DNA of 64,000 bases from Thiobacillus denitrificans (lineage in GTDB: Bacteria > Pseudomonadota > Gammaproteobacteria > Burkholderiales > Thiobacillaceae): contig NZ_LDUG01000025.1 of NCBI RefSeq assembly GCF_001530125.1, positions 1 to 64,000 of the forward strand, written 5' to 3'. Shown piece after piece: positions 20,987 to 33,316 of the stretch; position 1 is the first letter of the stretch; every line of letters starts with the position of its first letter. A program made the position numbers and the translations under genes. The notes under the pieces were generated by a model that saw only the letters and a program-made list of their open reading frames with translations, did not search any database and had not been told where the DNA came from.

Positions 20987-21062
<76 letters not shown>

Positions 21063-21129
21063 CATACACAAAAACGATGTTGGGCCGAGCCCGACGCACC
21101 TTCACACTGGACAGAGGCCTATACGCGGC

Positions 21130-22767
21130 ATGAGCCAAGAAGGGCAACTGGTCGATAAAAAATCCCTGCGCGCCATCGCCGGCCGAAATCCCGACTGGGA
21201 TGCACTCGCCAAAGACTGCGTCGCCTTTGCCAATGCCCAGGGTGGGCGCTTGCTCATTGGCATTGAAGATGATGCCGACACCCCTGTACCTGACCAGCGT
21301 ATCGATCCCGTATTAGCCGACACCCTGCGGCGCAAAATCAGCGAACGCACCGTAAACGTCACTGTCCTGCCCGACATTCGTCGTGCCGACAACGGCGGCG
21401 AGCTCCTCGAATTGGGCATCCCTCGCGCAATGTCAGTCGCCTCCACCACGGATGGCCGCTATTTTTTGCGTATCTCCGACGTAAGCAAGCCAGTTGTCGG
21501 TGACGATGTCATGCGGCTTGCCTCCGAACGTTCAGCCCTGCCATGGGAAACCCAAACCTCACTGCATGTTCCACGAACCCGGCTTGATGAGCTGAAGCTG
21601 ACTGCTCTAGTGGCTGCCATTCGTGCCTCCGACCGTGTCAAGGACTCAGTCAAGGAAAAATCCGAGCACGAACTGCTCGACCATTACCTGCTCGCACAAG
21701 ACGACTGGCTCACTCATCTTGGTGTGCTGTGCATCGGCAAACGCGAAGACCGCGCCAACCTGGGCACTGCACCAGTCATTCAGTTCATCAAGTACGACGA
21801 ACTTGGTCAAAAGGTCAACAAGCTCACATGGGACGACTTCAGCCTGAACCCGATGGAGCTCATCGAAGCGATATGGCGGGAAGTACCGGATTTCCGTGAG
21901 CGTTACGAACTGCCGGATGGCCTTTACCGCCAGAACGTGCCCGCCTACGACGAGATCGTCGTGCGCGAACTGCTCGTCAATGCACTGGTGCATCGCCCCT
22001 ACACGCAACGGGGCGACATTTTTCTGAACCTGCATCCGGATCGCCTGGAGGTGGTTAACCCTGGTTTGCTGCCGCTGGGCGTAACACCGGCCAACATTCT
22101 CCACACCACCGTTCGGCGCAACGAACACCTGGCCCGCCTGTTCCACGATCTCAAACTGATGGAGCGCGAGGGCAGCGGCTTCGACAAAATTTACGAAGTG
22201 CTGCTTTCGCAGGGGCGCCCGGCTCCCGAACTGGTCGAGGAACACGACCGCGTCCAAGTCACGGTACGCCGGCGCATCCTCAAGCCCGAGGTGATCGACT
22301 TCATCGCCAAGGCCGATCAGACCTACCAGCTCACACAACGCGAGCGCATCGCTTTGGGCCTGCTGGCACAACATGACGCACTGACCGCGCGCGAGTTGGC
22401 CGCCTTGCTTGAGCTGCCCTCGGCAGAAGCCTTGCAGCCCTGGCTGTCGCGCCTCCTCGATTGGAGCATCGTCAAAAGCGCAGGCCGAACTCAGGCAACA
22501 CGCTACTTTATCGAGCCGAGCCTGCTGGACAGCCTCGATTTCTCGGCAACGACCACCCTCAAACGGATCGAGTCACACCGGCTTGCTGCACTCATCCTGG
22601 AGGACGTGGCACGCTACCCCAAAACCAAGATGGGCGACATTCATAAGCGAATTGGCCTGGAAATACCGCGCTCGCGCATCCGGCGAACCGTCGAAGAACT
22701 GGTCGCGTCCGGCAAACTGCTTTCGGAGGGAATACGCAGTGGCACACGCTACACAGTCGCCGGCTGA
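21130..22767 (+). CDS. AlbA_2/Schlafen-type ATP-binding transcriptional regulator-like protein
   Basis: A 545-residue protein of the COG2865 type. The N-terminal AlbA_2-like domain has CVAFANAQGGRLLIGIEDD followed by ISERTVNVTVLPDIRR. A GHKL-like ATPase region follows, with YDEIVVRELLVNALVHRPYTQRGDIFLNLHPDRLEVVNPG and the ER-EGSGFDKIYEVL loop near residue 350. The C-terminal third has winged-helix-like segments (TARELAALLELPSAEAL, ...KMGDIHKRIGLEIPRSRIRRTVEEL). It starts 68 bases after tRNA-Ala. Likely a regulator of the island; the four TTTGGCTCAAA-type motifs just after its stop are possible binding sites. Other members accompany restriction and defence genes. Confidence 0.75.
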   Translation: MSQEGQLVDKKSLRAIAGRNPDWDALAKDCVAFANAQGGRLLIGIEDDADTPVPDQRIDPVLADTLRRKISERTVNVTVLPDIRRADNGGELLELGIPRAMSVASTTDGRYFLRISDVSKPVVGDDVMRLASERSALPWETQTSLHVPRTRLDELKLTALVAAIRASDRVKDSVKEKSEHELLDHYLLAQDDWLTHLGVLCIGKREDRANLGTAPVIQFIKYDELGQKVNKLTWDDFSLNPMELIEAIWREVPDFRERYELPDGLYRQNVPAYDEIVVRELLVNALVHRPYTQRGDIFLNLHPDRLEVVNPGLLPLGVTPANILHTTVRRNEHLARLFHDLKLMEREGSGFDKIYEVLLSQGRPAPELVEEHDRVQVTVRRRILKPEVIDFIAKADQTYQLTQRERIALGLLAQHDALTARELAALLELPSAEALQPWLSRLLDWSIVKSAGRTQATRYFIEPSLLDSLDFSATTTLKRIESHRLAALILEDVARYPKTKMGDIHKRIGLEIPRSRIRRTVEELVASGKLLSEGIRSGTRYTVAG

Positions 22768-22768
22768 C

Positions 22769-22897
22769 TTGGCTCAAACCACGCCCTATCTGGCCCATTT
22801 GAGCCAAACCACCGGCGAAAAGCACCCCAAAAGTCGTCGTAACCCATTGACTCACTTGGGATTCCGCTTTGGCTCAAACAGCCGGCCTGAGCCAAAG
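22769..22897. promoter_or_regulatory. Four operator-like repeats upstream of mod
   Basis: Copies of an 11-base motif occur at 22769-22778 (TTGGCTCAAA), 22798-22808 (TTTGAGCCAAA), 22868-22878 (TTTGGCTCAAA) and 22887-22897 (CTGAGCCAAAG). Orientations alternate forward, reverse, forward, reverse, forming two inverted pairs across a 175-bp gene-free gap between the regulator-like gene and mod. This suggests dimeric regulator binding over the mod promoter; no binding has been shown. Confidence 0.6.
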
Positions 22898-23656
22898 CGC
22901 GCAGAGAAGAACATGTATGTGACCCCCTTTAGCAACTGACCCATGCCGACACTAAACTGGATCGGCAAAGATGCCGTCGTCAAACACCACAAGGATGTGC
23001 CGTTCCGCCTGCTGGAGCCGGTGCCCGAACTGTCCTGCGGCGATGCCGACACGGGAAACCTGATCGTGCAGGGCGACAACCTGCATGCGCTGAAGGCGCT
23101 GCTGCCGCGCTACGCCGGCCAGGTGAAGTGCATCTACATCGACCCGCCATACAACACCGGAAACGAAGGCTGGGCCTACAACGACAACGTAAACAGCCCG
23201 GAAATCCGCCGCTGGCTGGGCGAAGTGGTGGGCAAGGAAGGCGAGACCCTGGACCGCCACGACCGCTGGCTGTGCATGATGTATCCGCGGCTGGTGCTGC
23301 TGAGACAGTTTTTGCGCGATGACGGAGTGATATTGATATCCCTCGATGATGTAGAGGCTGGCCACTTGCGACTGCTTCTGGATGAGGTTTTTTGGATTCA
23401 AAAACCGCATCGCAACGATTGTTTGGAATACAAGAAACACCGACAACAGAATCAAGACGAGGCTTTCACCTGATCACGAACACATATTTGTTTATGGCAA
23501 GTCTGAGCAGGCTGCAATTGAAGGAAGGATCATTGATCGGTCAGATTTTAAGAACCCTGACAATGATTTGCGGGGTCCATACGTAACTGACCCATTGAAG
23601 GGCAAGGCGACGGCAAGCGAGCGCCCTAACCTGCATGATTACAGTATGCAGCAGCC

Positions 23657-23667
23657 TGGGACAGAAC
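23657..23667. repeat. Left target-site duplication of the IS (11 bp)
   Basis: TGGGACAGAAC immediately left of the IS (one extra C at 23668 lies between it and the IR). The same 11 bases occur to the right at 25131-25141. Confidence 0.85.
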
Positions 23668-23668
23668 C

Positions 23669-25130
23669 AATGCTGTTCACTTAGCATGAATCTCATTACA
23701 CTACCCCGGTACGCAGATCATACCGAGGGCGAATCATGGCGGGGAAAGCTGCAGCACTGACAGGACAGGTTCGTGTTTCCGACTATTTGAGCGTGGGACT
23801 TCTCGCCCGTCTGGTTCCGCCCTCACTGGTTGATGAAGCGCTCACCACACACAATCGCCACAGCAAGCGGCAACGAGACCTACCCGCACATGCCGTCGCT
23901 TATTACGTCATGGCGCTCTCCCTCTATCGTGGCGTGAACACCGAAGAAGTCCTGCGCGTCGTCACCGAAGGCATGGATTACCTGGGTGATGCGGCCATCC
24001 GCCGCGAAGTCGGCAAATCGGCTATCAGCGCAGCCCGTACCCGCTTGGGTGCCGACGTCATGCATTATCTTGCCGAGCAGGCTTTGACCCCTTTGGCGCA
24101 ACCTCAGTCGGCGTGCGCTTTTTATCGCGGCTTGAGGATCGTGAGCATCGATGGCACGACGCTGGAAGTGGCCGATGAGGTCGGCAACCGGGAAGCATTC
24201 GGCGTGCCTGGCAGCGGGCAAGGGCAAACGGGCTACCCGCAAATTCGCTGTGTGGGACTGCTGGAGAACGGCACCCACGCCCTCTTCGGCGTGGCGCTGG
24301 GCGGCTACAAAGATTCGGAAGTGAGCTTGGCGCACCTTGCGCTACAGAACCTCAAACCGGGCATGTTGTGTCTGGCGGATCGCGGCTTCTCAGGATACCC
24401 GCTGTGGCAGGCGGCCAGTCAAACCGGCGCACAATTACTCTGGCGCATCATCAAGAATAGAAAGCTGCCCGTACTTGAGCGGTTCAGGGATGGTTCGTAT
24501 TTGAGTCAAATCAGCCCGGCACCGGCAACCCTCAAGAAGATGCGCGACCCAACCGCACCCGCGATGACTGTACGCGTCATTGATTATCACTTGCCCGGCG
24601 TGAGCGACGCCGAGCCAGTGTATCGGCTGATAACCACCTTGCTGGATGTCGAACGCTATCCGGCCGATGAGCTGGCCGCGCTCTACCATGAGCGATGGAG
24701 CATCGAGACCGCATTTGCCGAAATCAAGACCACGCTCAAAGGCGCAGACATTGTGCTGCGTAGCAAAACGCCAGAGTTGGTGCGCCAGGAGTTCTGGGGG
24801 TTGTTGTTAGCCCACCATGTGGTGCGCAAACTGATGCTGGAGGCAGCGCTCTCACGCCAGCGAACGCCTGATACGCTCAGCTTCAAACACAGCCTGTCAT
24901 TGATCCGCCGCAAACTTCCAGACAGCGGCGCCGTTCCCCCCAGAGGGCTTCCAGAAGTGGTGGTTGGCGTTGATTAAAGCCGCAGCCAGCGGCAGGCTGA
25001 CCAGTCCAAAAGGACGATCAAATCCTCGCGTGGTCAAGCGACGAACCAAGCAACATCCGCCGCGCAAGGGCGATGAAATTATGAATATCCGTCAGGATTG
25101 GACACCGGTGATTGTTAAGTGAACAGCATT
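23669..25130 (+). mobile_element. IS4-family insertion sequence
   Basis: A 1462-bp element with terminal inverted repeats: left AATGCTGTTCACTTAGCA, right ends TTAAGTGAACAGCATT. The inward-read ends match over AATGCTGTTCACTTA. It encodes one DDE transposase and sits in mod with an 11-bp target duplication (10 bp if the terminal base is assigned otherwise). Duplications of 10-13 bp are normal for the IS4 subgroup. No exact name can be assigned from sequence alone. Confidence 0.9.
23736..25122 (+). pseudogene. IS4-family transposase with a C-terminal frameshift
   Basis: DDE transposase of the IS4 family. Features: VSIDGTTLEVADE (first D), LCLADRGFSGYPLW (second D), and the YREK-type signature YHERWSIETAFAEIK, which carries the catalytic E. 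The frame as written ends at 24977 with PRGLPEVVVGVD. An alternative frame continues to 25122 as FQKWWLALIKAAASGRLTSPKGR ... WTPVIVK, the tail expected for this family. Removing one C from the C6 run at 24936-24941 restores it. So the protein lacks its normal tail. The catalytic residues are all upstream of the lesion, so activity is uncertain. Confidence 0.85.
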
Positions 25131-25141
25131 TGGGACAGAAC
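25131..25141. repeat. Right target-site duplication of the IS (11 bp)
   Basis: TGGGACAGAAC directly abutting the right inverted repeat; equals the left copy at 23657-23667. Confidence 0.85.
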
Positions 25142-26044
25142 ATGTTTGGAAACCAGATCCCGCCAAGGGATGGATCACTAACAGGGTCGGCTATGAGGCG
25201 CTACTCAAGGAAGACAGGATTTGGTGGCCACCCAACCCCCAAACGGGTTGGCCGAGAAAAAAACGCTTTCTATCCGAAACCCAGGAGCGAATGCCGGCAT
25301 CAACTTTTTGGCCAGAGTTCAAAACACAATCGGGAGCAAGGGAGCTGGACGAGATTCTGGATGAGAGAGTGTTCGCATTTCCAAAACCGACTGCTCTCAT
25401 TCAGCGGGTCATTGGCTATTGCGCCCCCCCGGGATGCTTGGTCCTTGACTCATTTGCAGGGTCTGGAACTACCGGCCACGCCGTGCTTGCAACTAATACC
25501 AAGGACGGTGGCAACCGCCGCTTCATCCTCGTGGAAATGGACGACAACATCGCCCGCACCGTCACCGCAGAGCGGGTCAAACGCGTCGCCACCGGCTACA
25601 CCAACTCCAAAGGCAATGTCATCGAAGCATTGGGCGGCGGCTTCCAGTTCTGCCGCCTGTCTCCTGAGCCGCTGTTCACCGCCGAAGGCCAGATTCGCCC
25701 CGACGTGCGCTTTTCCCAACTGGCCGAGTTCGTCTGGTTTGCCGAAACCGGGACGGGGTACACCGGCCGCGCCGACTCGCCACTGCTAGGCGTGCACGAG
25801 GGCCGCGCGGTCTATCTGCTCTACAACGGCATCCTCAAGGACAAGTCCGTGAGCGGCGGCAACGTGCTCACCGGCCCGGTGTTCGACGTGCTGCCGGTAT
25901 TTGCTGGCCCCAAGGTGATCTACGCCGCCGCCAACCGCATGGGCGCGCGCGCCGCGCGCGAGGGCATCACCTTCAAGCAAACGCCTTACGCGCTGGAGGT
26001 GTAAAGTGGCGATGGTTTTTCGAACGGAAAGCGGGGTCCTTATC

Positions 26045-26251
26045 ATGAGCACGACCGAAGTCATCGAACAGGCACTCAGGCTGAAGGCCGCCGAGCGCTA
26101 TTTGCTTCTCGAACTCCTGCATCAAAGCCTGGACAAGCCAGACCCGGAAATCGATACAGTTTGGCAACAAGAGGCATTGCGACGCTTGAAGGCCTATGAC
26201 GAAGGCCGCCTGGAATGCGTTTCCATGGAAGAGGTATTTCGGGATTTGTGA
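26045..26251 (+). CDS. Addiction-module antitoxin (TIGR02574-type)
   Basis: A 68-residue protein (MSTTEVIEQALRLKAAERYLLLE ... WQQEALRRLKAYDEGRLECVSMEEVFRDL), matching the short antitoxins annotated as putative addiction module component. The helical first half and the C-terminal helix ending in the EEVF motif are typical. The stop overlaps the toxin start by one base. It sits 40 bases after mod and is the first half of a toxin-antitoxin pair embedded within the mod-res operon. Confidence 0.82.
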   Translation: MSTTEVIEQALRLKAAERYLLLELLHQSLDKPDPEIDTVWQQEALRRLKAYDEGRLECVSMEEVFRDL

Positions 26252-26547
26252 TGGAGCTCATTTTCGCCAGACTCGCCCAAGCCGAGATAGACGAAGCCAG
26301 GCGCTATTACGAACGGCAACAACGCGGCTTGGGCGACGAGTTTCTGCGCGAGGCATCGTTGTCCGCCAAGCGTATTCGAGAGCAGCCTCTCGCCTGGCAG
26401 GTTGAAATCGAACCGGTCAGGCGGTTCCTGTTCAACCGATTCCCGTACAAGATGTTGTATGCGATACGCGAGGAGCGCATCGTCGTATTGGCCGTTGCCC
26501 ATCAGCATCGCGACCCCGAATACTGGGTTGACAGGATCGTTGCATGA
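26251..26547 (+). CDS. RelE/ParE-family toxin
   Basis: A 98-residue toxin of the RelE/ParE superfamily: FARLAQAEIDEARRYYERQQRGLGDEFLREA, IEPVRRFLFNRFPYKMLYAIREERIVVLAVAHQHRDPEYWVDR. The YYE and RFPY..LY blocks and the C-terminal HQHRDP are the ParE-like pattern. It is intact, unlike the paralogue between gltB and gltD. Its stop overlaps the res start (ATGA), so toxin and restriction subunit are translationally coupled. Confidence 0.85.
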   Translation: MELIFARLAQAEIDEARRYYERQQRGLGDEFLREASLSAKRIREQPLAWQVEIEPVRRFLFNRFPYKMLYAIREERIVVLAVAHQHRDPEYWVDRIVA

Positions 26548-29267
26548 CCGCGTTTCAGCCCAAAACCTACCAGTCGCAGGTGCTCGAAAGCGTCGAGGCG
26601 TATTTCCAGGCCTGCCACGAACTGCCGTCGCCCTCGATTGCCTACACCGCCACCACCGAACGCCTGTGGGGGCGCGGCCTGGCCTACAACCCGCTGTCGG
26701 GCTTTCCGACCGATATGCCGTATTTCTGCCTGCGCGTGCCCACCGGCGGCGGCAAGACCTGGCTGGCGGCAAAGAGCGTGGCGCTGGTCAACACGCATCT
26801 GCTGCGCGGCGAGCATAGCGTCATCCTGTGGCTGGTGCCCTCGAAGCCGATTCGCGAACAGACGCTGCGCGCCTTGCGGAATCGCCAGCATCCCTACCAC
26901 ACGGCCTTGCGCGAAGCCGGGCCAATCACGGTGATGGATCTGGACGAGGCGAAGAGCGTGACCCGCGCCACGCTGGATACCTCGACCACGGTCATCGTGG
27001 CCACGCGGCAGGCGTTTCAGGTGGAAGACGAGGAATGCCGCAAGGTGTACCAGTCGAGCGGCGCGCTGATGCGCCACTTCGACAACCTCGCGCCGGCCCA
27101 GCGCGACGAGTTGCTGAAAGATGGCCAGGGCGCCGAACAGACCACGCCGTATTCGCTGGCCAATGTGCTGCGCCTGCGCCGGCCGTTTGTGGTCGTCGAC
27201 GAGGCGCACAACAGCCGTACCGAACTGGCGTTCGACATGCTCGCGCGCTTCCGCCCCAGCGGGGTGATGGAGTTGACCGCCACACCCGATCTGGAGCGCA
27301 CCCCGTCGAACGTGCTGCACAGCGTGTCGGCCGCCGAATTGAAGGCAGAGGAGATGATCAAGCTGCCGGTGGTGCTGGAAACCGAACCGAACTGGCAGCA
27401 GTGTCTGGCGGATGCTATCGGGCGCCGCGATGCCCTGCACAAGCTGGCCGACGAAGAGCGCCGTGCGGGCGCGGCCTACCTGCGGCCGATTGTATTGATT
27501 CAAGCCGAGCCGCGCCGGGCTGGCGTCGAGACCCTGGACTTCGAGCGGGTGCGTATTGAACTCATCACCAACCATCACATTCCGGCCGGGGAGATCATCG
27601 TCGCCACGGGCGAGGAAAAGGGGCTGGAAAAGATCGAGGCCGATTACAAGCTGGGCATTGCCGACCCGGCTTGCCCAGTGAAGTTTGTCATCACCCAGAA
27701 GGCACTGGCCGAGGGCTGGGATTGCCCCTTTGCCTATATTCTGGTCAGCATGGCCTCGCTGCATTCGGCCACGTCGGTGGAACAATTGCTCGGGCGGGTG
27801 CTGCGGCAGCCGGGCGCCAGCCATCGGGTAAACCAGCCCCTCAATCAGTCCTATGCCTTCGTGGTGTCGCGCAACTTCGCGGAAACGGCGAGCGCGCTAC
27901 GCGACCGGCTGGTGGCCGGTGCCGGATTCGAACGGCGCGAGGTGACCGAGTTTGTGATCGCCGCCCGTGCCGAGCAGGCACGGTTTGATTTGAATAATGG
28001 CCATGTGGTGTTCCAGCCTGTGCCTGTGTCCTTGAGCGAAAAGCCCGATTTCAAGGCACTGCCAAAAGTCATCAAGGACAAATTGCACTGGGAGCCGAAG
28101 CTCAACACCCTGACCATCAGCGCGCCGCTGACCGAAGAAGAAACGGAAACACTCCAGGCTACGGTGAAGTCCGAAGCCGCAGTTGCGGCGATTGCTGAGG
28201 CGGCCGAAGTCAGTCGCACCACGGCCATCGAGTTTTTCCAGACACCCGCCGAGTTGGGCGAGCGCTTTCGCATTCCGCAACTCGCGCTGCGCGTTCAAGG
28301 CCAAGATGGATTGGAGCAGTTGCAGCTATTCGATGACCCGGAGGTGCTGGATTACCCGTGGGATCTCTCGCCTTTCGATGCTGTCCCGACCGCCGACGAC
28401 CTGGCGGCGATGGGGGCCGGCCTCAAGGTTTCGGAGGGCGGCGAAATCGACGTGGACGACGCCAGCGGCAAGGTCGTTTCACGTTTCCTGCCAGAATTGC
28501 AACGTGACCTGGGGCTGGTGTACCAACCCGAAAACTGGGATGCGGTACGCCTGGCCACCTGGCTGTGCCGCAACCTGCCCGAGCCCTCGCTCACCTATGC
28601 CAGCAAGCAGGCCTTCGTGGCCGCCTGGCTGGCCGAACTGCTGCGCCGGGAGGATTTCACGCTGGCCCGCGCCAATCTGCAAAAATTCCTGATCCGCAAT
28701 CTGATCGAGGCACGCATCCGCGACATGCGCAAGCTGGCAGTGGGCAAAGCCTTTCAACAAACCCTGTTCGGTGACGATGCGGCTTCGCGCGTGGCAGTCA
28801 GCGACATATATGCCTTCGACTTCCAACCGCAGGCCTATGCGCCCAGCCGCGACTACGTTCCAGGAACATCGGAGTTTGGCTACTTCGATTTCCGCAAGCA
28901 CTTCTACGGGCGGATAGGCGATTTCGACAGCAAGGAAGAATTCGAATGCGCCTGCTGGCTGGATACGCAGGCGCAGAAAGGACGACTCCAGTTCTGGGTG
29001 CGTAACCTGGTTCGGCGCGAAGGAAGTTCGTTCTTCCTGCAAAAGGCGGACGGGCGGTTCTACCCGGACTTTCTGTGCCAGCTTCCCAGAAAAGACGACA
29101 TGCCCGGACCGATCCTCGCTGTCGAATACAAGGGTGCCGACCGCTGGTTATCGGCCGAGGATGACCGATTGATTGGTGGGCTGTGGGCCAATCTTTCCGA
29201 GGGGCGCTGCCGATTCGTGATGGTCAAGGACAAGCGCTGGGACTGGATTGAGGAGCATCTGGCGTGA
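26544..29267 (+). CDS. Type III-like restriction endonuclease subunit (Res)
   Basis: A 907-residue SF2 helicase-nuclease. Helicase motifs: Walker A VPTGGGKTWLA (about residue 70), DEAH in VVDEAHNSRTEL, TATPDLERTP, ITQKALAEGWDCP and QLLGRVLRQPGA (motif VI). The C-terminus carries a PD-(D/E)xK nuclease in DGRFYPDFLC ... AVEYKG, preceded by DFDSKEEFECACWLD. Partner mod is broken, so the endonuclease may lack a matching methyltransferase in this strain. The type III pairing is by architecture and context. Intact as written; ATG 26544 overlaps the toxin stop. Confidence 0.9.
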   Translation: MTAFQPKTYQSQVLESVEAYFQACHELPSPSIAYTATTERLWGRGLAYNPLSGFPTDMPYFCLRVPTGGGKTWLAAKSVALVNTHLLRGEHSVILWLVPSKPIREQTLRALRNRQHPYHTALREAGPITVMDLDEAKSVTRATLDTSTTVIVATRQAFQVEDEECRKVYQSSGALMRHFDNLAPAQRDELLKDGQGAEQTTPYSLANVLRLRRPFVVVDEAHNSRTELAFDMLARFRPSGVMELTATPDLERTPSNVLHSVSAAELKAEEMIKLPVVLETEPNWQQCLADAIGRRDALHKLADEERRAGAAYLRPIVLIQAEPRRAGVETLDFERVRIELITNHHIPAGEIIVATGEEKGLEKIEADYKLGIADPACPVKFVITQKALAEGWDCPFAYILVSMASLHSATSVEQLLGRVLRQPGASHRVNQPLNQSYAFVVSRNFAETASALRDRLVAGAGFERREVTEFVIAARAEQARFDLNNGHVVFQPVPVSLSEKPDFKALPKVIKDKLHWEPKLNTLTISAPLTEEETETLQATVKSEAAVAAIAEAAEVSRTTAIEFFQTPAELGERFRIPQLALRVQGQDGLEQLQLFDDPEVLDYPWDLSPFDAVPTADDLAAMGAGLKVSEGGEIDVDDASGKVVSRFLPELQRDLGLVYQPENWDAVRLATWLCRNLPEPSLTYASKQAFVAAWLAELLRREDFTLARANLQKFLIRNLIEARIRDMRKLAVGKAFQQTLFGDDAASRVAVSDIYAFDFQPQAYAPSRDYVPGTSEFGYFDFRKHFYGRIGDFDSKEEFECACWLDTQAQKGRLQFWVRNLVRREGSSFFLQKADGRFYPDFLCQLPRKDDMPGPILAVEYKGADRWLSAEDDRLIGGLWANLSEGRCRFVMVKDKRWDWIEEHLA

Positions 29268-30313
29268 GCGATGGCGAAAAAAAACTGATTCGCAACAGCA
29301 CGGCCGAGTTCCTGATCTTTACCGGTCAGGCAGGTGAGCAGAGTATTGAAGCCCGCTACGAGGACGAAACCGTCTGGCTGACGCAGAAGCTGATGGCCGA
29401 ACTCTTTGCCGTGGACGTCCGCACCGTCAGCGAACACCTGAAAAATATCTATGAAGTCGGCGAAGTCCAGCACGAGGCAACTATCCAGAAATTCCGGATA
29501 GTTCAAACCGAAGGCAATCGGGAAGTCGGACGCAACATCGACTTTTACAACCTCGATGCCATCATCTCAGTGGGCTACCGGGTCAACTCCCTGCGCGCTA
29601 CCCAGTTCCGGCAATGGGCGACACGGGTACTGCGCGAGTTCGCTATCAAGGGCTACGTCCTTGATAAAAAGCGCATGGAGAACGGCACTTTTCTCAGGGA
29701 AGATTATTTCGAGCGCTTGCTCGCAGAAATCCGCGAGATTCGCCTCAGCTAACGCAAGTTCTACCAGAAGGTTACCGACATCTATGCCACGGCGGTCGAT
29801 TACAACTCGGATGCCCCTACGACCCGGGCGTTCTTCGCCAGGGTGCAGAACAAGCTGCATTTCGCCATTCACGGTCACACCGCTGCCGAGCTCATCGTAC
29901 AGCGTGCCGACAGCGGCAAGGAGCGCATGGGTCTGACCTCTTGGGAACATGCCCCGGACGGGAAAATCCTCAAGACCGATGTGGTCGTCGCCAAGAACTA
30001 CCTCAATCACGACGAGTTGGAATCCCTCGGCCGCATTGTCAACGCCTACCTCGACCTGGCCGAAGAGCGTGCCCGGCGAAAAATCCCCATGACCATGGAG
30101 GACTGGGCGCAACGGCTGGATGCCTTTTTGGAATTTACCGACCGCGAGATTTTGCGCGATGGCGGCAAGGTATCAGCTGAAATTGCGAAAGCCCACGCTG
30201 AAAGTGAGTTCGAGAAATATCGCATCGTGCAGGATCGGCTATTTGAGAGTGATTTCGACAGGGTGATCAAGCAAATCGGGGCTGAACACAAGCCCGGCGG
30301 CGATGGGGAGTAA
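29264..30313 (+). pseudogene. RhuM-family protein with one in-frame stop codon
   Basis: Encodes a RhuM-family protein (virulence-associated Fic-like neighbour family): VWLTQKLMAELFAVDVRTVSEHLKNI, IVQTEGNREVGRNIDFYNLDAIISVGYRVNS and FRQWATRVLREFAIKGYVLDKKR. At 29750-29752 a TAA interrupts LLAEIREIRLS-RKFYQKVTDIYATAVDYN, but the same frame continues for 187 further codons to 30313 with an intact family C-terminus. The family usually has a Glu here (GAA), so a single G-to-T change explains it. GTG 29264 overlaps the res stop. The family is common in restriction loci; its role is unproven. Confidence 0.85.
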
Positions 30314-30321
30314 GGCAAGGA

Positions 30322-30867
30322 ATGGCCACCAAGAAAAAATCCGCCTCGTGGAGTGACGTCAAAACCAGACTGACCGATTTCGACCGCGCTGGATTGCTTG
30401 GGCTGCTGCAAGACCTGTACGCGGCCAACAAGGATAACCAAACCTTTCTGCACGCCCGTCTCAGTCTGGGCGACGACGTGCTCAAACCGTACAAAACCAT
30501 CATCGACCGTTGGCTGTGGCCCGATGTGTTCAAGAATCAGGACACCTCTGTCGCCAAGGCAAAAAAGCCTATCGCCGATTACAAGAAAGCCATCGGCCAA
30601 CCGGAGGGTCTGGCCGAACTGATGGTGTTCTATTGCGAACGTGCCGCGGGGTTCAGCAATGATGTCGGCCTGCAGGATGAGGGCTACTTCGATGCGCTGG
30701 TGCGAATGTTTGAGCAGGCCTTGAAAACCATTTCCAATTTAGGCGAGGGGCAGCGCCTGCCGTTGTGGGAAAGGCTTCGTGTCGTATATCGAATCTGTCG
30801 AAACTTTGGATATGGCGTGAGCGATGACATGGGCGACCTGCTTGCCGAGTACGGGGCCGATGATTGA
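30322..30867 (+). CDS. Hypothetical island protein, possibly DUF6155-like
   Basis: A 181-residue soluble, mostly helical protein with no signal peptide. Visible segments: SWSDVKTRLTDFDRAGLLGLLQDLYAANKDNQTFLHARL, YKTIIDRWLWPDVFKNQDTSVAKAKKPIADYKKA and LMVFYCERAAGFSNDVGLQDEGYFDALVRMFEQALKTI. I think it resembles DUF6155, but only by recollection. It is 8 bases after the RhuM pseudogene and overlaps the next gene's start (ATGA-like, GATGATTGA), so it is coupled to the primase-helicase. Function unknown; the coupling makes it a candidate partner. Confidence 0.6.
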   Translation: MATKKKSASWSDVKTRLTDFDRAGLLGLLQDLYAANKDNQTFLHARLSLGDDVLKPYKTIIDRWLWPDVFKNQDTSVAKAKKPIADYKKAIGQPEGLAELMVFYCERAAGFSNDVGLQDEGYFDALVRMFEQALKTISNLGEGQRLPLWERLRVVYRICRNFGYGVSDDMGDLLAEYGADD

Positions 30868-33220
30868 ACGCAATCAGTTGGCTGCGCTGCAAGCCGAAAA
30901 CGCCCGCCTGATTGCCCTACTGAAATCTCACGGCATCGAATGGCGCTTGCCGCCTGAGCCTGTGGCACCTGTTGCCAAGCAGGAATCCTCAAGGCTTTCC
31001 GCCGCCGAAAAAGTGGCGCTGTTTCGTGGGCTGTTCCGCGGGCGCACGGACATCTACCCGATCCGCTGGGAAAGCAAGACCACTGGCAGGACCGGCTACG
31101 CGCCGGCCTGTGGCAATGAGTGGCTTGCCGGTGTTTGCGAGAAGCCGCGCATCAAATGTGGGGAATGCAATAACCGTTTGCTGATCCCATTGTCGGATAC
31201 GGTCATCTACGAGCACCTTACCGGTAAACGCACCATTGGTGTCTATCCGCTGCTGGCTGACGACCATTGCCATTTTCTCGCGGCTGATTTCGATGAGGCG
31301 GAATGGCGAGAGGATGCCAAGGCGTTTTATCAGTCGTGTCACGAACTGGGTGTGCCGGTCGCCCTTGAGATATCGCGCTCCGGTAACGGTGCGCATACCT
31401 GGATTTTCTTCACCGGCAGCGTATCGGCTCGAGATGCGCGCCGACTCGGCACGGCCATCATCAGCCACACCTGCACCCGCACTCGCCAACTCAAGCTCGA
31501 ATCCTACGACCGCTTGTTCCCCAACCAGGATTCGATGCCAAAAGGCGGTTTCGGCAATCTGATCGCGCTGCCGCTGCAGAAGCATCCGCGTGAGAACGGA
31601 TGCAGTGTGTTCGTGGACGGTGATTTGCGTCCTTACCGGGATCAGTGGGCCTTTCTGGCCACCATCCTGCCGATGCCTGCACACGATATCGAGCCCACCA
31701 TTCTGAGAGCGACGGGAAACGCGCACCCACTCGATGTAACGTTCATCGACGAGGAAGACCAAAAGGAGCCTTGGAAGCGATCTGCATCCGTCACCAAGCA
31801 TATGGTCGGACCGATGCCGAAGTCACTCACGGTGACGCTAGCCAACCTAATCTATTTCGAGAAGGCGCAACTCCCGCAGCCACTGGCCAACCGACTGATT
31901 CGTTTGGCGGCCTTCCAGAATCCGGAGTTTTACAAAAAGCAGGCGATGCGTTTCTCGGTGTGGGATGAACCGCGCGTAATTGGCTGTGCCGAGAACTACC
32001 CCAATCACATCGCGCTTCCGCGTGGTTGCCTGGATTCCGCGCTGGAGTTGCTTCGTGACAACGCTATTGGCTGCGAGCTGGTCGACGAGCGATACGCGGG
32101 GTCGCCGCTGGACGTCGCGTTTGCCGGTACTTTACGGCTGGATCAAGAATTCGCCGTGGCCGCCATGCTGCATCACGACGCAGGGGTTCTGTGCGCGCCG
32201 ACTGCCTTTGGCAAAACGGTCACGGCTGCTGCGATGATTGCGCGCCGTGGCGTGAACACGCTGGTTCTGGTGCATCGAACCGAACTGCTCAAGCAATGGC
32301 AGGAGCGCTTGCAATCATTCTTGGGCGTTGGCAAAGGTGTGGTCGGCACCATCGGTGGCGGCAAGGCCAGGCAGACAGGCAAAATCGACATCGCGGTGAT
32401 GCAATCGCTGTCGCGTCAGGGAGAAGTTAATTCGCTGGTCGAAAATTACGGTCACGTGATTGTGGACGAATGCCATCACGTCGGCGCGGCGTCGTTCGAC
32501 GCGATTCTGAAGCGGGCAAAAGCCAAATATGTGCTCGGCCTGACTGCAACACCGATTCGCCGCGATGGCCAGCAGCCGATCATTTTCATGCAGTGCGGGC
32601 CAACTCGCCACACCGCCGTCAAGCCCACGAGTGCGCCGTACGACTTGGCTGTCACGCCGTGCACATTGCATTCGCGGATTGATTTGCCGCAGGAAGCGGG
32701 GATTCAGGATGTATTCCGGCACCTTGCCATTGACCAAGCCCGAACGGACGCGATTGCTGCCGAGGTCGAAAACGCCTACGGCCAGGGCCGGAAAGTGCTG
32801 GTGCTGACCGAGCGCACCGAACATCTCGATGCCATCCAAACCGCCTTGGACGGCAAGGTTCCATCGTTGTTTGTCCTGCACGGACGGATAGCCAAGAAGC
32901 AGCGCGCCACACTGATCGCGGAACTCAATGCGCTTCCACCCGATGCACCGCGCGTTCTGCTGGCGACAGGCAAGCTGGTCGGTGAAGGATTCGACCATCC
33001 ACCCCTCGACACTTTGGTGCTGGCAATGCCGGTTTCGTGGAAGGGGACGTTGCAGCAATACGCGGGCCGACTGCACCGCGAACACGCCACCAAGACCGAT
33101 GTGCGCATTATCGACTTCGTCGACACCGGTCACCCGGCGCTGCTGCGGATGTGGGAAAAACGCCAGCGCGGCTACCGGGCGATGGGCTATCGGATGGCGG
33201 AAGAAACGGGTGCAAATTGA
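30860..33220 (+). CDS. Archaeo-eukaryotic primase / SF2 helicase fusion of the TOTE conflict type
   Basis: A 786-residue protein. The N-terminal ~330 residues carry an AEP-primase-like domain: LFRGLFRGRTDIYPIRWESKTTGRTGYAPAC, a Cys cluster (CEKPRIKCGECNN), HCHFLAADFDEAEW with the catalytic-type DxD-like acidic residues, and ALEISRSGNGAHTWIFF. The C-terminal helicase has APTAFGKTVTAAA (Walker A-like), VDECHHVGAASFD (DExH), TATPIRR and GEGFDHPPLDTLVLAMP, QYAGRLHRE. This primase plus helicase architecture is what is described in TOTE conflict systems. ATG 30860 overlaps the preceding gene. A defence role is inferred from family and island context. Confidence 0.85.
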   Translation: MIERNQLAALQAENARLIALLKSHGIEWRLPPEPVAPVAKQESSRLSAAEKVALFRGLFRGRTDIYPIRWESKTTGRTGYAPACGNEWLAGVCEKPRIKCGECNNRLLIPLSDTVIYEHLTGKRTIGVYPLLADDHCHFLAADFDEAEWREDAKAFYQSCHELGVPVALEISRSGNGAHTWIFFTGSVSARDARRLGTAIISHTCTRTRQLKLESYDRLFPNQDSMPKGGFGNLIALPLQKHPRENGCSVFVDGDLRPYRDQWAFLATILPMPAHDIEPTILRATGNAHPLDVTFIDEEDQKEPWKRSASVTKHMVGPMPKSLTVTLANLIYFEKAQLPQPLANRLIRLAAFQNPEFYKKQAMRFSVWDEPRVIGCAENYPNHIALPRGCLDSALELLRDNAIGCELVDERYAGSPLDVAFAGTLRLDQEFAVAAMLHHDAGVLCAPTAFGKTVTAAAMIARRGVNTLVLVHRTELLKQWQERLQSFLGVGKGVVGTIGGGKARQTGKIDIAVMQSLSRQGEVNSLVENYGHVIVDECHHVGAASFDAILKRAKAKYVLGLTATPIRRDGQQPIIFMQCGPTRHTAVKPTSAPYDLAVTPCTLHSRIDLPQEAGIQDVFRHLAIDQARTDAIAAEVENAYGQGRKVLVLTERTEHLDAIQTALDGKVPSLFVLHGRIAKKQRATLIAELNALPPDAPRVLLATGKLVGEGFDHPPLDTLVLAMPVSWKGTLQQYAGRLHREHATKTDVRIIDFVDTGHPALLRMWEKRQRGYRAMGYRMAEETGAN

Positions 33221-33316
33221 CGTGAAGTCCGCACCGTTCCTCGCAATCCCGCGCTATTGCCTGCAATCTTGGGAGTCCACAGATCGCTTGGTCAGCCACC
33301 CTCCACCATGACATCC

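Follow-up and report, generated by a model that had tools for sequence, protein, structure and literature searches.

The window, a 64,000-nucleotide stretch of the Thiobacillus denitrificans genome (assembly GCF_001530125.1, contig NZ_LDUG01000025.1, positions 1 to 64,000 of the forward strand), carries a gene for a primase-helicase directly behind the gene for a 181-amino-acid protein that we call U181. These two genes are a conserved, overlapping, and codiverging two-gene unit. U181 occupies positions 30322 to 30867 (plus strand), and the primase-helicase gene (30860 to 33220, plus strand; 786 amino acids) begins 8 nucleotides before U181 ends, the overlap at the U181 stop reading ATGATTGA. 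An earlier note on this DNA, made from the sequence alone, had already described U181 as overlapping the primase-helicase start, and this holds with the start at 30860. Related U181 and primase-helicase genes have mostly been inherited together, keeping this overlap.

To follow the pair beyond the window, we scanned GTDB contigs and took the best 80 of 170 confirmed U181 places (two assemblies supply two loci each, L038/L043 and L077/L081). Primase-helicase sequence lay 3' of U181 in 58 of these 80 loci and was intact in 34, broken in 16, and cut by the contig end in 8. In one of the broken copies (L113), recognizable sequence is limited to the C-terminal third of the gene, which is in place. 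At the other loci, the gene was intact but 334 nucleotides away (1 locus), missing (14 loci), or unreadable (7 loci, including L107, where the contig ends). Of 47 scored pairs, 39 overlap by exactly 8 nucleotides. The distance matrices of the two proteins agreed closely (Mantel r = 0.854; 35 pairs; 0 of 2,000 permutations). Six loci (L051, L068, L072, L076, L101, and L108) have a primase-helicase gene with a large internal loss, pieces on both sides being kept, next to an open U181 frame. Separately, a Zeta_toxin-like ATPase stands about 200 nucleotides 5' of a diverged U181 in two small-genome relatives, L226 (1416 to 2015; by Pfam) and L228 (by likeness). At L100, a reading frame whose start resembles that of Cas9 lies about 1.3 kb 3' of a U181 that has no primase-helicase.

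The earlier note had joined the type III restriction gene res to U181 and the primase-helicase as one multipart system. The unit formed by the last two is borne out by the figures above; the membership of res is not. A res gene of this type occurred within 10 kb upstream in 5 of the 80 U181 loci (L039, L050, L092, L097, and L104). L049 has res fragments downstream of U181, and at L016, a locus found in a different search, U181 follows a more distant res (40% identical). In other genomes, RhuM, U181, or the primase-helicase was found downstream of close res homologs in 0 of 8 cases (71 to 85% identity by tblastn, with more than 7 kb of readable downstream DNA; a ninth homolog ends at its contig). 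None of the three was found downstream of six distant res genes, one of which left only 589 bases to inspect. In the order, searches of 399 genomes each, apparently the same draw, matched res in 16 genomes (our own included) and the primase-helicase in 22 (both at E <= 1e-100). Only G000 and G616 had both, and in G616 the res is distant. We therefore rejected res as a third part of the unit and regard it as a neighbor.

Of the proposed set res-RhuM-U181-primase-helicase, then, the last two members recur together, res does not, and RhuM is a frequent but loose neighbor of U181. Upstream sequence extended beyond 1.1 kb in 77 loci, and RhuM preceded U181 in 29 of them (19 whole and 10 partial genes). 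Its distances agreed with those of U181 (r = 0.477; 18 pairs; 8 of 2,000 permutations) more weakly than U181 distances did with those of the primase-helicase, and at L196 it stands directly before the primase-helicase without U181. When 70 reading frames 5' of U181 were scanned with Pfam, the first 25 of 103 families included RhuM (25 frames), YhcG nuclease (5), Fic (3), ResIII (2), and ParE (2).

The two proteins and their known relatives

Read from 30860, the primase-helicase consists of an archaeo-eukaryotic primase (AEP) domain at residues 50 to 278 and an XPB/RadD-like superfamily 2 (SF2) helicase at about residues 425 to 740. The first is the AEP-TOTE domain (PF22548; E = 8e-98; 327 bits against a cutoff of 27), and the gene is single copy in the genome. 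A start at 30824 was rejected; the start at 30860 is the most likely one because relatives conserve a start of this type with its 8-nucleotide overlap. Among 97 proteins of the clade, D143 and D145 were kept in 95 of 95, H179 and D224 in 96 of 97 each, and K452 and D536/E537 in 97 of 97; from AEP and SF2 motifs, we take these residues to be catalytic. The full reading frame with its kept motifs and the recurrence of the U181 pair in many genomes point to more than chance. The nearest solved sequences for the helicase half were XPBII first and RadD further down (PDB 6p4f and 6jde) and, for the AEP domain, PDB 7nqd and 7nqf. We take 7nqd to be a CRISPR-associated primase-polymerase; its record names a TPR_REGION protein.

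U181 gave no family at E <= 0.01 in Pfam, NCBIfam, or PADLOC, PF19652 (DUF6155) included. It is nevertheless a remote DUF6155 relative: although a direct Pfam match is lacking, a profile-profile comparison with DUF6155-type proteins (hhalign) gave a probability of 99.7, an E value of 6.7e-27, and 24% identity. Four such proteins entered the comparison and three were scanned; all three match PF19652 (E values of 4e-22 to 9e-4), the weakest falling below the cutoff. Pfam lists DUF6155 as a family of unknown function (PF19652), and the name was not found in the literature searched, outside which most subscription papers lie. The AlphaFold2 model is all helical, with nine helices (predicted local distance difference test [pLDDT] score of 88.8; predicted template modeling score of 0.73). 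A fold search of PDB and BFVD returned nothing at E <= 0.001; E values were 0.077 or worse for the PDB matches listed, several of which are TPR or 14-3-3 entries, and the U181 profile met two PDB sequences at chance level. Viruses offered little: 0 of 61 pattern matches to viral contigs were confirmed, and the phage search gave one record (27.7%). AbiE and other toxin-antitoxin genes take the position of U181 before related primase-helicases, but U181 itself matches no family of toxins or antitoxins.

TOTE stands for TPR, OB, TBP, and Effector, the parts of conflict systems described by Aravind, Iyer, and colleagues in 2022 (as cited in PMC12458937). The label "TOTE-type," which the earlier note had given to the enzyme, fits its AEP-TOTE domain, but the TBP and S1/CSD parts were not found above the cutoff. 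For the OB part, the sole S1/CSD-TOTE model searched (PF22707) had one match in the genome, about 92 kb away, at 21.8 bits and thus below the 27-bit cutoff. For TBP, PF00352 was unmatched in the T. denitrificans genome and positive in four archaeal control genomes. For the TPR part, U181 has an all-helical model but no Pfam match, and its PDB matches to TPR entries are at the E values given above. With no TBP and no S1/CSD part above the cutoff, we rejected the term "TOTE system" in its strict sense; by these tests, the genome appears to have the TOTE effector domain alone. The likeness to TOTE systems thus lies in the effector domain, and one relative (L206) has a protein with NERD and S1CSD-TOTE-2 domains directly upstream. 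The difference lies in the partner, which is U181 here and often a toxin gene in relatives.

Two other groups come close. The window protein shares with CRISPR-associated primase-polymerases its nearest solved AEP structures and its matches to NCBIfam PrimPol_Msp and PADLOC PrimPol, but it reaches 86.5 of the 200 bits of the NCBIfam cutoff and is fused to an SF2 helicase; no CRISPR genes were found among the island genes scanned. Its helicase half resembles the XPB and RadD repair helicases (NF045503 and NF053632, besides the PDB entries above) but is below both curated cutoffs and is fused to a primase. In the literature searched, part of which was accessible only in excerpt and outside which most subscription papers lie, we found no description of the U181 pair, of primase-helicases behind toxin-antitoxin genes, or of an exchange of partners (sources included PMC12458937, PMC5512222, PMC5862659, PMC11980606, PMC8649781, and PMC7315799).

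Genes upstream of related primase-helicases

The primase-helicases of this clade have varied 5' neighbors, among which AbiEii genes and U181 are the commonest. Draws of 369 genomes from the class, 399 from the order, and 398 from the phylum supplied relatives of the whole protein, and we collected the loci seeded by these AEP-TOTE genes, leaving out partial or broken matches of the class and order draws (e.g., G174, G196, G218, G250, and G404). Fifty-four fetched regions and our own made 55 loci; 50 had readable starts, and 42 had an upstream open reading frame by a fixed rule (8 of the 50 had none). A toxin gene or a HigA-like antitoxin gene stood directly upstream in 17 of 50 loci. One of these (L169) is a 5' fragment only, without which Fic drops out and the count becomes 16 of 49.

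Among the 42 loci that have an upstream frame, AbiEii directly preceded the primase-helicase in 9 (L151, L152, L155, L162, L180, L197, L200, L204, and L205; five scanned singly and four called from a family tally of nine plus likeness). All nine genes end 20 to 47 nucleotides before the projected primase-helicase start and, by eye, are of at least three kinds; the genes before them are putative AbiEi antitoxins. U181 preceded it in eight loci (the window, L016, L017, L019, L194, L226, L227, and L228) and ParE in three (L156, L168, and L225). A HigA-like helix-turn-helix gene did so in two: L163, where it follows a HigB_toxin gene, and L209, counted by an HTH_3 (HigA-like) gene that overlaps the start and follows a small gene matching no toxin family. 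HipA (L150), PIN (L208), and Fic (L169) were found once each. The spacing was looser for HipA in L150 (138 nucleotides), ParE in L168 (164 nucleotides), and Fic in L169 (165 nucleotides). Outside the toxin families, AlbA_2 was upstream in two loci (L164 and L165), and one locus each had RhuM without U181 (L196), YgjP (L201), the NERD and S1CSD-TOTE-2 protein (L206), an SNF2 helicase behind HipA (L153), and a DUF4143 ATPase (L167). In the remaining loci, the upstream gene was another one, unidentified, or absent. The counts per family are lower bounds, because the rule chose an incorrect frame at L194, where blast identifies U181; one RNA_ligase match in the tally lacks an assigned locus.

As a control, we applied the same rule to other genes of this genome and scanned the 100 frames that precede them. 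No toxin family was among the 17 families with two members, and AbiEii, being absent from them, occurs at most once in the 100 proteins; the control shows the first 25 of 136 families, so that single toxin matches are possible in it. In a tree built from 97 primase-helicases, at least 19 changes are required for the 13 known kinds of partner taken together, the minimum possible being 12. Changes numbered 14 for U181 (8 forced by well-supported branches) and 6 for AbiE (4 forced). This is one quick tree with partner labels assigned by hand, and 25 of its 97 rows are labeled "other" and lie outside the 19-change count.

An SNF2-type helicase of 800 to 860 amino acids recurs beside the primase-helicase, in the order AbiEii-primase-helicase-SNF2 or HipA-SNF2-primase-helicase. 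It was recognized by Pfam in L200 (11218 to 13716), L153 (9416 to 11821, minus strand), and L204 (4197 to 6773, minus strand) and by N-terminal likeness, judged by eye, in L152 (5382 to 7853) and L160 (8269 to 10776). In L165, an AlbA_2 gene, a primase-helicase about 46% identical to that of the window, and a type III mod-res pair form one string; the gene between looks to us like Abi_2.

The primase-helicase matched 350 plasmid records, some by the helicase half only, and 91 of them cover at least 80% of it; no phage record did so (0 of 1,262 matching records). In an Escherichia albertii plasmid (L145), it lies between a resolvase and a Tn3 transposase, and a Pantoea stewartii plasmid (L146) has the same layout with a transposase fragment; in both plasmids, the primase-helicase is placed as if it were cargo of a Tn3-like transposon. 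Plasmids thus repeat the variety of neighbors: those of Azotobacter, Cupriavidus, and Massilia have U181 beside the primase-helicase, an Acinetobacter plasmid has HigB and a regulator, and an Aeromonas plasmid has NYN-LOTUS. In a Sinorhizobium plasmid (L269), the gene sits among conjugation genes and has no tight partner. In two Escherichia coli plasmids (L147 and L272), AlpA and YfjI/DUF3987 genes accompany it in one string, an arrangement that resembles phage satellites.

The island around the pair

In the window, the pair lies at the right end of a 12.2-kb island (21063 to 33308) inserted at the 3' end of tRNA-Ala(CGC) (20987 to 21062, plus strand; ARAGORN). The island is flanked by an 8-bp direct repeat, CTCCACCA, formed on the left by the last bases of the tRNA gene (21055 to 21062) and on the right by the island end (33301 to 33308). 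The congener L291 has the empty site, the same tRNA gene being directly followed by the right flank. Direct repeats together with an empty site in a relative mark a tRNA-inserted genomic island. The extent given in the earlier note, 22943 to 33220, encloses genes that are indeed in the island, which is wider on this evidence. No integrase or relaxase was found among the island genes scanned. The gene at the right flank was present in 6 of 11 genomes of a genus draw (our own included), and the tRNA gene was inside two of five congener stretches fetched; the other three had different right-flank neighbors or a contig end. A further congener (L290) keeps the left part of the island, namely the AlbA_2 gene (DNA 92% identical) plus the very start of mod, as well as 92 bases close to the 3' end of the primase-helicase gene; the sequence between them is unrelated. 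These remnants suggest that the island is older than T. denitrificans and is eroding in different ways.

All genes named in the earlier note are present in the order it gave. The island begins with an open reading frame for an SLFN_AlbA_2 protein with a RecG-C-like (HATPase_c_4) part (21130 to 22767, plus strand; Pfam), a gene that also precedes this mod-res pair in L104 and L256. All features that follow are likewise on the plus strand. The type III mod gene is broken: its 5' part (22943 to 23668) changes frame near 23390 to 23400, and an IS4-type insertion element (23669 to 25130) separates it from the 3' part (25135 to 26004; open reading frame at 25291 to 26004). Compared with its relatives, mod falls into three matching blocks, two frames before the element and one after it. 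The element has 18-nucleotide inverted repeats (23669 to 23686 and 25113 to 25130) and a transposase gene (23736 to 24977; Nterm_IS4 and DDE_Tnp_1 matches); it is absent from the earlier note. Between mod and res stand an antitoxin-like gene (26006 to 26251; Unstab_antitox, PF09720/TIGR02574) and a ParE-type toxin gene (26215 to 26547; family match). The same kind of pair occupies this place in L050 and L253 (42 to 45% identical to window positions 26006 to 26547) and is absent from the L252 and L254 to L256 copies of this type III system.

The res frame (26544 to 29267; 907 amino acids) is open. RhuM (29264 to 30313; PADLOC candidate PDC-S05) has an in-frame TAA at 29750 to 29752 (codon 163), and its predicted structure (mean pLDDT of 38.8) was not used. 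The earlier word "decayed" is thus apt for mod, with its frameshift and insertion, and for RhuM. The island differs from an intact type III restriction-modification system, although both mod and res match one: mod is broken, and the open res lies outside the U181 cassette. Genes overlap at antitoxin/ParE, ParE/res, res/RhuM, and U181/primase-helicase, and 8 nucleotides separate RhuM from U181. Open reading frames remain for the AlbA_2 protein, the antitoxin, ParE, res, U181, and the primase-helicase, and to judge from them, these products could still act here.

Possible roles of the cassette

We tentatively favor, at somewhat less than even confidence, a modular cassette of U181 and primase-helicase in which the enzyme acts on DNA, U181 regulates or targets it, and the genes in front abort or addict. 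The primase-helicase would be the working enzyme: on DNA that is invading or stalled, its XPB/RadD-like helicase would unwind the strands and its polymerase domain would prime or copy them. U181 would be translated from the mRNA of the enzyme, bind it, and regulate or target it, and toxin-antitoxin or restriction genes in front would provide either an abortive arm or an addiction by which the cassette is retained. What is shown is the intact frame with its small overlapping partner and the change of partners in the family; action on DNA, control by U181, and a part in defense or maintenance are what we infer. Several observations weigh against this reading. U181 stands without a primase-helicase in 14 of 80 loci, and wider U181 relatives are less tied to the enzyme than these best 80: the class draw had a U181 match in 13 of 369 genomes with the gene adjoining in only 4, and the plasmid U181 loci fetched had it in 3 of 5. 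In half of the loci seeded by the AEP-TOTE gene (25 of 50), the position directly upstream is free of U181, toxin genes, and HigA-like genes, and the control frames came from ten stretches of one genome. Because the fold search gave nothing at E <= 0.001, the role of U181 is a guess. Toxin-antitoxin genes crowd into islands anyway, so that their adjacency can be hitchhiking, and the plasmid copies in Tn3 transposons and conjugation regions fit a housekeeping role for mobile elements.

Hitchhiking is the strongest rival, although we consider it somewhat doubtful. A promoterless mobile primase-helicase would settle behind well-expressed operons, capturing their promoters, and its partners would have no working relation to it. 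The partners are indeed unrelated in sequence, known toxin-antitoxin pairs can act alone, RhuM and U181 agree more weakly than U181 and the primase-helicase, and other genes also precede the enzyme, such as HsdR in L210 (330 nucleotides away) and YgjP in L201. However, the narrow spacing of all nine AbiEii genes, of at least three kinds, and the U181 overlap held across deep divergence speak for selection on the arrangement. The second rival, which we find unlikely, is that the primase-helicase serves replication or repair, priming plasmid, transposon, or island DNA after transfer, with toxin-antitoxin genes as ordinary stabilizers. The many plasmid matches, the Tn3 context of L145 and L146, the conjugation neighbors of L269, and the AlpA-YfjI context of L272 suit this idea, and AEP primases of mobile elements are known (PMC5862659). 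Against it stand a scan of the island genes that found neither relaxase nor integrase, the many chromosomal copies beside restriction genes, and the lack of any phage record covering 80% of the protein. Very improbable, in our estimate, is a harmful primase-helicase with U181, or RhuM and U181, as its antidote. U181 is intact in 15 of the 16 loci with a broken primase-helicase and also survives alone, but we did not accept this asymmetry as proof, since U181 itself served to find the loci and the primase-helicase gene is four times longer, so that part of it is expected. Furthermore, the close primase-helicase of L150 (about 90% identical, though it carries an in-frame stop) is accompanied by HipA and lacks U181.

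Extended to the whole clade, the modular cassette would be an anti-invader system with a constant TOTE-type AEP/SF2 core that handles foreign or stalled DNA and an exchangeable first gene, coupled to it, that decides the outcome. The first part could be AbiE, HipBA, ParDE, HigBA, VapBC, Fic, or the helical adaptor U181, and many "solitary" toxin-antitoxin pairs and DUF6155 genes would be parts of such cassettes; we regard this extension as doubtful. If the exchange of partners is functional, a single family of enzymes would connect several types of toxin-antitoxin genes with restriction systems and with an unnamed protein family, and this would offer a direct handle on why toxin-antitoxin genes so often adjoin DNA-processing genes. 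DUF6155-like proteins gain a testable context, and the AEP-TOTE domain gains one outside the TPR-OB-TBP operons that named it.

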